Source: Helicobacteraceae bacterium (GTDB lineage Bacteria > Campylobacterota > Campylobacteria > Campylobacterales > SZUA-545). Taken from it: a stretch of DNA of 49,123 bases. The stretch spans positions 1 through 49,123 of the forward strand of contig JAIRKM010000002.1 in assembly GCA_031260125.1 (NCBI GenBank), read 5' to 3'. The translations under genes were made by a program, and so were the position numbers. The notes under the pieces were generated by a model. It did not search any database, was not told the DNA's origin, and was given only the letters and a program-made list of their open reading frames with translations. Of the stretch, positions 7,449 to 48,824 are shown in pieces. How positions within the stretch are numbered: position 1 is the first letter of the stretch; each line of letters starts with the position of its first letter.

Positions 7449-8588
7449 TCAAAATTGACTTGATGTTGCTCGCTTTGGCGTCCTCAAAGCCCTTCTTTTC
7501 CTTCGCATTCTCCCATAAAACATCATCGCGCCGCTGACGCTAAATAGCGCCATAGCAAGAGATGAGAGGCACATCGCCGCCTTGCCAAACTCGCCAAAAA
7601 ACTGCCCGCTGTGCAGGGTGTACATATTTTGTATCAGCTTCTGTCCCGTAGTTTTCTCTGCGTATGGCTCTTGAGAAACTATTACGCCCTCTTGAACGTC
7701 GATCTTTAAGAGATTGTAAGCGCCGTATCTGTCATTTGAGTACGATAACTCATAAGGATCGTCCTTAAAAGGAACGCGAATATAGTACATTTTAACGCCA
7801 TCGATAGCCTCTGAAGCTGTGTCCACCACCCTTTGCAACTCTTTCGGGCTTGCTATTTGCATCTCCCGCCGTTCGCCTCTTGGAAAACCCATATTTTCAA
7901 CCCCCGCTAGGGAGCTTAGCAGACCTCTATACCACCCGTAAGACCACCACAACCCCGTAAAACACATTATCAAAACAAAGATCAGCGTAAAAACTCCCAA
8001 AACGCAGTGAAGCTGATACAAAAACTTATATCCCTTGGATTTGAAATCGATCGTGAGATTTCTCAAGAAGTTACGCCTCAACAGCGGCAGATACAAGAGA
8101 ATTCCCGCAATCGATATAACGATAATAGCGATCGTCGTCGCGGCGACTATTTGTTTACCGACAACGCTCATTCCGTCAAAGTTCAAAAACCTGTGAAATA
8201 TCATTGCTCCGGCGAAAAACTTGTCGCTTTTTAAGCCGTCCGTTATGATTTCGCCCGAGTACGGGTTTAGCTCATAATAACCGAACGCGCCATTTTGCGC
8301 CGCCGACACGCCTATACTCTTCAGATCGTCTTTCAGTCTCCTTACGCTGAAAAAGCGTATCGACGCGTCTGGCTTCTGCTCTAAAAACCGCGCGCTTATC
8401 TCCTCTACGCTTAGCGGCTTAGCCGTTTTGCGGGAGCTTATATACGCGGCTCTTTCGTAATCCCTTATGTCATCGGCGTAGGAGTATAAAGCTCCCGTAA
8501 CGCCGACGATCGCTATGGTTACGCAAAACGCAAGTCCCAATATCAGATGAACGTTGCGCAAAATCTTTTTAAGACGCAGGCTTTTCAA
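7449..8588 (-). CDS. PepSY-associated transmembrane protein (iron-uptake associated)
   Basis: 379 residues with four main membrane segments: about residues 13-33, 140-165, 190-215 and 345-365. This is the architecture of the PepSY_TM (PiuB/FsrB-like) family, whose members sit beside siderophore receptors and are proposed to act in reduction or release of ferric siderophores at the inner membrane. Conserved-looking elements include LILGLAFCVTIAIVGVTGALYSY, an FHRFLNF stretch and LHSGQFFGEFGK. The TTG start at 8588 lies 12 bp after the TonB receptor stop, so both are probably one Fur-controlled transcript. Substrate unknown. Confidence 0.8.
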   Translation of the reverse strand: MKSLRLKKILRNVHLILGLAFCVTIAIVGVTGALYSYADDIRDYERAAYISSRKTAKPLSVEEISARFLEQKPDASIRFFSVRRLKDDLKSIGVSAAQNGAFGYYELNPYSGEIITDGLKSDKFFAGAMIFHRFLNFDGMSVVGKQIVAATTIAIIVISIAGILLYLPLLRRNFLRNLTIDFKSKGYKFLYQLHCVLGVFTLIFVLIMCFTGLWWSYGWYRGLLSSLAGVENMGFPRGERREMQIASPKELQRVVDTASEAIDGVKMYYIRVPFKDDPYELSYSNDRYGAYNLLKIDVQEGVIVSQEPYAEKTTGQKLIQNMYTLHSGQFFGEFGKAAMCLSSLAMALFSVSGAMMFYGRMRRKRRALRTPKRATSSQF

Positions 8589-8600
8589 ACGCCCGCGCCT

Positions 8601-11164
8601 TTAATACTCATACCTAAGGCTGGCATAAAACTGCCTGCCCATCGAATACTCTTCGGTAAGCGGCGTACCAAACGATCCCGAGTTGCCCGTCATACTTGCG
8701 TCGTTTTTACGATTTAATAGGTTCAATATCTCCACGCCTAATGTCATCGTATTTTCGCCGAATTTAAGATCGTAATGCATCGACAGATCGACGTTAAATA
8801 CGTCTCTGTAGTTTTTGACTTCAAAGATTCGCGTCGGTAAACCGGCAGGATCGAGATCGCCTCCTGTGCCGCTAAACAGCCGCAGTCCTTTCCCGCCCTT
8901 TTGATACCACGCAACGCCGCTTACGCGCAAGGCGTTGGCTATACGCGCCATATGCGTATATGTTACGACCCATGGGGAGTTAAACTGCGCGGCGGGGAGA
9001 TCGTCAAGCAGCGTCAGTTTGCCGTTATATGTTACGTGGGTGGGGGATACGGGAGTGCCATGCTCACGGACGTGTGAGTCGAATCCTCTAAATCCTATAA
9101 TGTTGCTCTTTGTATCCGATCGCGTCGCGGATAGTTCTGATATATGTTTCGATCCGGCTATATCGTAACTTTTCGACGCGCTGAACGTAACGCCCCAGTA
9201 ATCCGTTTTGCCGTCGTTCGTATTATAGTAATTAAACGTATTCGCCGGCGTACCAAAGGTATATCTTGACTTGATCTGATCCCTATATTGTCTTTTCGCG
9301 TACTCTATCTTTAGGAGCGTATCGGCGAAATTTACGGAAGTTCCGGCGGCAAACTCGTCCGAATAGGGCGTTTTTAGATGCTCGTACTCGTAGAGTGAAG
9401 GATAGCCGGTTCCAAGAACCCACGGTTGATCCCAATTGGTGCGGCTATAACTATCCGCCTGATATGCATAAACCGCGTAGGCTAGTATTTGCGTTCCGTA
9501 GTATCTGTTGTATCCGCCGTATAGATTCAAAAACCCGTCATTAAAAATATCGGCGTTGGCAAACAGCCTAGGGGCGGTATCTACATTGTCGGTCAAGCTG
9601 TCGGTGGAAACTCTTACCCCCGGACGCAGAGTAAAACGATCGATCTCTATCTCGTCTTCGACAAATAGCGCCGCCGTATAGTAATCTTTCGATCGGCTGA
9701 CAGCGCCGTATTCGTACTTGCTTTTTGCGTATTGTTCGCCTGCGATTATGCCGTCCTCTTTAGAGCCGACCGCGCTGGCGTTTAATTCGGGACTGCTAAA
9801 GGTGATACCGCCGTCAAAGTCGAGTTTTGCTTTGGTATATTCGGCTTCTGCGCCTACTTTGATCGCGTGCGTCGCTATGCCCGCTGTTATATCGTCGAGG
9901 TGCAACGCGCTTTTTAATCCAATATCTGACTTTGTAATATCGGAGTTGCCTCTGGATCCCTCTTGGGCGTCAGCTCCGCTGCTGTTCCAGTTTATAGCGC
10001 CGGTTGGAGTCGTGCGCCATGTATATGCGTAGTACTCGGCGTTGTCTATGCCCGTATGCGTCTCCTTGTAGCTTAGCGTGTTTTTAAGCGTTCCAAAGCT
10101 AAGCAAGTTTTGTATATTGCCGATAACGCTCAAACCGCCGTTTTCTACGTCATAATCCGAGTTTTTGACGTTCGGCCTGAAGAGCTTCTGCGTATAGGGC
10201 GCGTAGATCGCCGTTAGATCGGCTTCAAAACCGTCTGAGGGGAGCGCGTTTAGCTTGATCAGATAGTTCTCGTTTTCGCGGTACTGGGTGCGCCTTTCTT
10301 TGTACGTACTAGTGTCGGGATTGACCAGATTGTATCCCGAATAGAGCGGGATTTTTGAGTACTGCCGCCCGTAGCTGACCATAAGACCCAGATATTCGTT
10401 TATAGGTCCGTCCAAAGAGAGCGCGCCGTCGTATTTGCTAAACTCCGGCTGATAGCTCTCGCTCGTGGGATAATCCATATCTTTCTGCGCGTCTGTCAGG
10501 TGAAACTTCGCCCAGCCCTCATCCGTATATCTAAAGTTCGCCATAACGTGCCATCGATCCATTCGGGCGTCTTTAAGTTTGGCGTCTATCACGCCTCCGG
10601 TAAAGCCGCCGTATTCGGCGGAGATGTTTTCGGTGTAGGCCTTGACACTCTCAACAAGGCTGGTATCGACAAAGATCGACTGCGCCTCGCCGGAGGCAAA
10701 ACCCGTAGGATCGTTGCTTTCCATGCCGCCCGGCGCGATGTTGTTGTTGTTGCCCACGCCGTTGATCATAAAGTTGTTCTCGTAGTGCTGAGAGCCGCGA
10801 ATGGAGATTTTTGGTGGCGCAATCTCGCCGCCTCGCGCCGCGCTTCTGGCGTTCTGTGTGAATTGGATTTTGGAGTCAGACCGAAGCGCATCGGTTATAG
10901 AGCGTGTTGAGGCGGCAAAGCCCCCCCCCCCCCCGTCTGGTCGGTTACCACGATCTCGTTAAGTACCTCCGCTTCGCCATAGGTTTGCGTTCTATTTGCG
11001 TCGCTTGCTTTCGCTTGATCCGCAGTAGCTTCGCTTGCGCCGTTTGCCACCGGTATGTCGGATCGATCGCTAGGAGCGAGTACCGCGGATTCGCTTTGCG
11101 CCATTATAGGCGGGACTAAAGCCATAGAAAGAGCTAAGGCTTTGAACGTGAATGAAACTGCCAT
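8601..11164 (-). CDS. TonB-dependent outer-membrane receptor, phase-off by G-tract frameshift
   Basis: Two reading frames are pieces of one gene. The N-terminal piece (11164 to ~10895) starts at ATG 11164 behind AGGAG, has a signal peptide ending near MAQ, and a TonB-box-like stretch (EVLNEIVVT). It then enters a 14-G run and stops 30 bases later. The other frame, read from the tract with one extra G, continues without a stop as GFAASTRSITDAL...PPKISIRGSQHYENNF, a plug domain, into the 722-codon barrel ending at 8601 with the aromatic C-terminus FYASLRYEY. With 15 G the protein would be about 854 residues, normal for TonB receptors. Substrate unknown; the Fur-like box and PepSY neighbour suggest a ferric siderophore. 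Confidence 0.85.
10921..10934. repeat. Poly-C/G homopolymer tract, 14 bp, inside TonB receptor gene
   Basis: Fourteen C on the + strand, that is 14 G in the receptor coding strand, placed between the TonB box and the plug domain. With 14 G the receptor is out of frame; 15 G (or 12) would restore it. This is the structure of a contingency locus. A base-calling error in the tract would give the same picture. Confidence 0.88.
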
Positions 11165-11190
11165 TGAATACTCCTTTTGCGCATTAGTTT

Positions 11191-11207
11191 ATGATAACTA
11201 TTATCAT
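11191..11207. promoter_or_regulatory. Fur-box-like palindrome upstream of TonB receptor
   Basis: ATGATAA-CTA-TTATCAT is a perfect 7-bp inverted repeat with a 3-base spacer and strongly resembles the 19-bp Fur consensus. It lies 27 bp upstream of the receptor start, where Fur binding would block transcription when iron is plentiful. Confidence 0.7.
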
Positions 11208-48333: not shown

Positions 48334-48824
48334 GCGCCTGCCGCAGAAGGGGCAAAACGCGCTTTTAAGTGCGCTGCTCATAGACCTCACGATAGAACGC
48401 AAAAATAGAAAATATCCTTACGGTGGAAGTTGAGAAGTTCACATTTTGGTTCTTTGAATACCAAACCGGCGCGCCGCCGCCCAATGCCGCAAAAGCCACG
48501 CTAGCTTAACGGTTTGCTTGGCGTCTCTTTGGCGTTTTGCGCGCCGCGTGGATTTTTTGGGCGGATCGCCTTCGTTTGAGCCTGTACGCGCAAAAACTGC
48601 ATCTTCCTTACGCGCCCGCATGAAATGTGGGATTTTACGCAAAAAACTCCGATTTTTCACGGATTTTATTGTTCTTTAAGGAAGAATAGATAATGATTAT
48701 CATTGCAATTTTACCTCAAGGTCAAAAAGGTCAAATTCGTTCGAGCGTTAAAGTTGCAACATTTCAGGAAAGGATGTGGTATCATTCAAATGTTGATTAA
48801 ATCTATCTGGATTAAGGATTTAAG
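48334..48824. other. Intergenic region upstream of the DUF2325 gene
   Basis: About 490 bp. The first ~330 bp are GC-rich with no credible gene: a leftward 73-codon frame (48439-48660) is basic, has no domain and no clear ribosome site. From ~48660 it becomes AT-rich and contains a Fur-like palindrome (48692-48704) and the ribosome site of the next gene. Confidence 0.45.
48692..48704. promoter_or_regulatory. Fur-box-like palindrome upstream of the DUF2325 gene
   Basis: AATGAT-T-ATCATT is a perfect 6-1-6 inverted repeat, and TAATGATTATCATTGC around it fits the classical Fur consensus (GATAATGATAATCATTATC) well. It lies about 120 bp upstream of the start at 48825. Confidence 0.65.

Follow-up and report, generated by a model that had tools for sequence, protein, structure and literature searches.

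The window, as we call the whole stretch of 49,123 nucleotides analyzed here, is contig C56 of a genome of 1.64 Mb in 87 contigs (G000) and carries on its minus strand a receptor gene whose two halves lie in different frames (Table 1). Frame 1 encodes the signal peptide and TonB box and frame 2 the plug and barrel, and the junction falls inside a tract of 14 G (G14), exactly where the original prediction had placed it. The plug/barrel frame is open from upstream of the tract, with 777 codons from the tract start and 722 from the first in-frame ATG, and continues to the stop codon without another lesion, as had also been claimed. The earlier figure of about 854 residues for an in-frame tract length is arithmetically correct, and the 722 codons agree. 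The same was true of the position of the tract between TonB box and plug and of the short OFF product, here 89 residues that include the signal peptide. Signal peptide, TonB box, plug (Pfam Plug, PF07715, in the second half of the receptor, E 8.5e-7) and barrel, the parts expected of a TonB-dependent receptor, are all present and are joined in natural in-frame alleles such as that at locus L036, for which an AlphaFold model is of low confidence (mean pLDDT 52.8). Among solved structures the closest is that of the ferredoxin receptor FusA of Pectobacterium (PDB 4zgv), which has an E. coli homolog, YddB (PMC5095587); the sequence match to FusA takes in almost all of plug and barrel (E 1.7e-77), and this relationship, which spans both domains, makes the receptor FusA-type.

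Table 1. Features of the receptor locus and related sites in the window.
Feature	Position	Strand	Basis or remark
Receptor gene	11164 (start codon) to 8601 (stop)	-	
Receptor 5' part: signal peptide, variable linker, TonB box	10935..11164	-	TonB box conserved in the upstream frames of orthologs
Signal peptide MAVSFTFKALALSMALVPPIMA	receptor N-terminus	-	judged by eye
TonB box NEIVVTD	10960-10940	-	judged by eye
G14 tract, the proposed switch; Gly linker from TonB box to plug	10921..10934	-	
Assembled (OFF) open frame of 89 aa: covers signal peptide and TonB box and reaches an out-of-frame stop 23 nt past the tract	10895..11164	-	
Plug and barrel, FusA-like TonB-dependent receptor, no other lesion	8601..10920	-	PF07715, FusA 4zgv match, dN/dS
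Shine-Dalgarno AAAAGGAG	11171..11178	-	sequence
PepSY_TM membrane protein (FoxB-like)	7449..8588	-	Pfam; 12 bp past receptor stop; co-transcription probable
Fur-box-like palindrome TGATAACTATTATCA	11192..11206	.	1 mismatch to 7-1-7 consensus
Second Fur-box-like site AGATAATGATTATCA	48688-48702		1 mismatch to consensus

The downstream PepSY_TM protein, putatively FoxB-like, matches along its length, at a weak level (E 1.8e-5), the PepSY protein of PDB 7abw, a FoxB-type protein. A PepSY_TM homolog is also the next gene after the receptor in the orthologs and in several paralogs. Iron uptake is likely because the FusA match, the PepSY_TM partner and the Fur-box-like palindrome all point to it, in line with the metal or siderophore-type uptake originally proposed, and iron would be the probable cargo. 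The Fur-box-like site was not conserved in most orthologs, being clear only in the window copy and at L031. FusA homologs are widespread and have so far received limited study; the fus operon contains fusB, the M16 protease gene fusC and fusD (PMC5095587), whereas the neighbor at the receptor locus is the PepSY_TM gene instead. A ferredoxin (Fus) system was considered as well, and the two M16 proteins of the genome, both on other contigs, lend it no support; the locus is not classed as a Fus system.

The G14 tract is not an accident of composition, since the next-longest run of G or C in the window is only 6 bases when the contig-end run is set aside, and there are no runs of 7-13. Overlapping G9 matches number 15 in the window versus 0.15 expected in shuffles, 9 of the 15 coming from the contig-end run, a C17. 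The C17 occupies positions 72-88, within a minus-strand frame that has a signal-peptide-like beginning, and the sequence past it is C-rich and may be of low quality.

Relatives of the receptor comprise a paralog on contig C52 of the same genome (52% identity) and members in five sister-genus genomes. Neither of the other two genomes of its genus has one, and plasmid records contain distant ones only, all below 60% identity (26-29% for the eight listed). When these orthologs and paralogs were compared, as the original prediction had proposed for orthologs, the tract position proved to be conserved: a tract of 8-16 G stands at the same place in nine subfamily members from five genomes (14 in both the window copy and C52, 12 and 14 in G007, 15, 8 and 11 in G010, 14 in G011 and 16 in G013), a range that reflects differences between species and paralogs, with one genome per species compared. 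The gene is in frame in three of the nine (the 15- and 11-G copies of G010 and the G011 copy) and out of frame in six, which is about what random lengths would be expected to give. Because each gene has its own register, a given length may be ON in one gene and OFF in another. Two other members are in frame with no such tract, namely the G012 ortholog, which has the same five glycines in mixed codons, and L034, in which the Gly linker is absent. A close relative, L031, has the Gly linker in mixed codons but is frameshifted further on, outside the linker, which means that decay or misassembly affects at least one copy. Overall, a long homopolymer within the coding sequence sets the frame and differs in length between related copies, as in poly-G phase-variable genes.

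Barrel codons were compared between the window copy and its G010, G007 and G012 orthologs, which gave dN/dS values of 0.096-0.176 (0.096-0.131 for pairs that include the OFF window copy and 0.135-0.176 for the remaining pairs), ratios that are approximate because dS approaches or exceeds 1 in most pairs. The barrel is thus under strong purifying selection, and the OFF copy shows no sign of relaxation. The original view of an intact barrel under recent selection is upheld in that the values for the window copy are no higher than those of the other orthologs.

The genome encodes TonB and five plug proteins, and four of the five have a G/C tract of 12-14 in the 5' coding part, all four being out of frame. 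The C26 receptor has a G12 in its signal peptide and is out of frame; the C48 receptor has a C12 directly after its first start codon and is likewise out of frame, unless translation begins at a later ATG. The gene for the fifth plug protein, on C8, has no tract of its own, but a G14 is situated upstream of it. Tracts are enriched in the plug genes of this genome (hypergeometric P ~1e-7, assuming 20-24 tracts and 1500-1700 genes). Among nine genomes of relatives, 15 of 26 plug loci have a G/C run of at least 8 within 900 bases upstream of the plug, and 2 of the other 11 are truncated by contig ends. In G007 two leaders from another class of receptor match on both sides of the tract, with 2 substitutions over some 220 bases, and so differ almost only in tract length (14 vs. 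8); these lengths need caution because both leaders lie at contig ends. The two other genomes of the genus, G001 and G002 (completeness 91% and 71%), have many G tracts, and yet a plug-domain receptor was not found in either. That G14 on C8 of G000 (C8:3591-3604, L052) lies in a short leader ORF that precedes the gene of a periplasmic-binding-like protein; the end of one of the leader frames overlaps the start codon of that gene, suggesting a switched translational coupling.

Across the genome, 24 G/C runs of at least 10 were counted versus 0.6 expected, a few of them contig-end artefacts. Each of the two genus relatives and all seven sister-genus genomes have 21-52 such runs, no such runs occur in five further genera of the family, and other families of the order mostly have few or no tracts, with a few rich exceptions. 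MutL was found above the cut-off in none of six family genomes tested (G000, three sister-genus relatives and two tract-less relatives), and since it is below the cut-off in the two tract-less relatives as well, its absence alone does not account for the tracts. Lipoprotein-like genes that contain RCC1 repeats, or in other members GLUG motifs, form a family whose common leader has a poly-C of 13-16 directly before the signal peptide (C1:1012, C8:4016, C14:290, C17:79937, C69:22600, C76:33208, C84:322 and C84:12377 in G000; loci L051, L053, L054, L055, L069, L070, L072 and L073), and their products are likely phase-variable surface proteins. Tracts of G000 also occur in or near genes for a glycosyltransferase, a sugar epimerase, a methyltransferase, a TPP enzyme and an outer-membrane-like protein (C22:28547, C86:6938, C27:10256, C40:4254 and C46:33087).

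We consider it highly probable that this is a contingency gene, encoding a TonB-dependent receptor of the FusA type whose translation is switched at random by slipped-strand changes in the G tract. The anatomy of the gene, its frame states, the conserved tract position with varying length and the purifying selection are observed; these, together with the independent tracts elsewhere, support the phase-variable locus that the original prediction had envisaged. Slippage in vivo would alter the number of G within the Gly linker, reversibly, and the length of the tract would set the exit frame. The plug/barrel frame would give the full receptor (ON), and either other frame a short peptide ending soon past the tract (OFF), a state that presumably carries some benefit; the assembled genome has an OFF length. 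Changes by multiples of three should vary only the length of the linker, because the tract encodes glycine in a flexible segment. The Fur-box-like site suggests iron regulation atop the switch, and the PepSY_TM protein probably assists in processing the iron compound after import.

The first alternative is that the tract was miscounted through an assembly or PCR-stutter error and that the real length is in frame, the gene being simply on. This is a short-read-type metagenome assembly in which several contigs end at or near G runs, and one contig-end run of 64 G is clearly artefactual. Because a short-read MAG may misstate the exact number of G in a tract, the OFF state of the window copy is not certain. 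However, a miscount cannot abolish a tract seen at the same place, with 8-16 G, in nine genes from five independent assemblies, and tracts are also present in other receptor classes, so that the tracts themselves are biological; a miscount would alter the called state and not the switch, and we regard error as an improbable explanation. Slippage of RNA polymerase or of the ribosome at the G run would yield some full receptor at any length and make the tract a setter of expression level and not of a strict on/off state. Long G runs are plausible slippage sites, and such slippage could operate alongside that of DNA. However, tract length is not conserved among the orthologs and G012 keeps its frame without a run, which makes this account somewhat less probable still. 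The run might also consist of accidental glycine codons in a linker, with no selection for switching, and G012 and L031 do keep a Gly linker in mixed codons. However, GGG makes up 18% of the Gly codons in the window, so that four in succession would have a probability of about 0.001, and yet nine members have such a tract; in other receptor classes the G or C runs fall at unrelated sites and in some cases encode Pro, and chance codon choice is very improbable. A plain pseudogene, lost through a frameshift and decaying, is scarcely credible: the gene was assembled out of frame and L031 is frameshifted elsewhere, but the 777 codons have no further lesion, dN/dS to the orthologs is 0.10-0.13, and four receptors of one genome out of frame at their tracts would be improbable under random decay. 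The runs at the same spot in relatives, of other lengths and in some cases in frame, therefore make the locus look like an on/off switch of a known type and not a dead gene, and neither decay nor a one-off assembly error can be the whole story given nine tracts at the same place and purifying selection on the barrel.

The nearest named loci are in MAGs that carry the label Campylobacteraceae or Helicobacteraceae. Two sample codes, Kf353 and Nm470, stand for termites, Kalotermes flavicollis and Neotermes meruensis respectively (PMC11707648), and from these codes of its relatives we infer a termite origin for the genome of the window. A search of openly licensed literature gave no account of phase variation in Campylobacterota from termite guts. 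In Neisseria, HmbR and HpuA are switched by a poly-G in the reading frame, and the HmbR and HpuAB systems of Neisseria meningitidis resemble the locus described here in that TonB-dependent iron receptors, or a lipoprotein partner, have a poly-G within the frame (PMC3786947). However, they belong to another receptor family and another phylum, whereas here most receptors of one genome have tracts and one subfamily has its tract in the linker between TonB box and plug. The phasome of Campylobacter, analyzed with PhasomeIt, shares with G000 the phylum Campylobacterota and the large number of poly-G/C contingency genes (PMC6321876). In that work the ON share across a larger set of C. jejuni and C. 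coli is near neutral drift, the passage on the core phasome names a hemerythrin-like protein and HxuB and no TonB receptor, and the tracts are mostly of 9-10 bases with 13-15 rare, whereas those described here are mostly of 11-16. The proposed mechanism is that of HmbR and HpuA; what is new is the lineage, the receptor family and the spread over most of a receptor repertoire.

The best-known cases of phase variation in iron receptors come from human pathogens, and host immunity is the usual explanation. Insect hosts have no antibodies, and so phages, bacteriocins or competition for iron can be asked about as the cause. The placement of the tract in a glycine hinge is a neat design, in that three-base changes should be nearly silent. 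In our estimate the chances are evenly balanced that this is an insect-gut lineage in which most TonB receptors are switched independently, so that clonal cells would differ in their receptors, possibly as an insurance against phages or bacteriocins.
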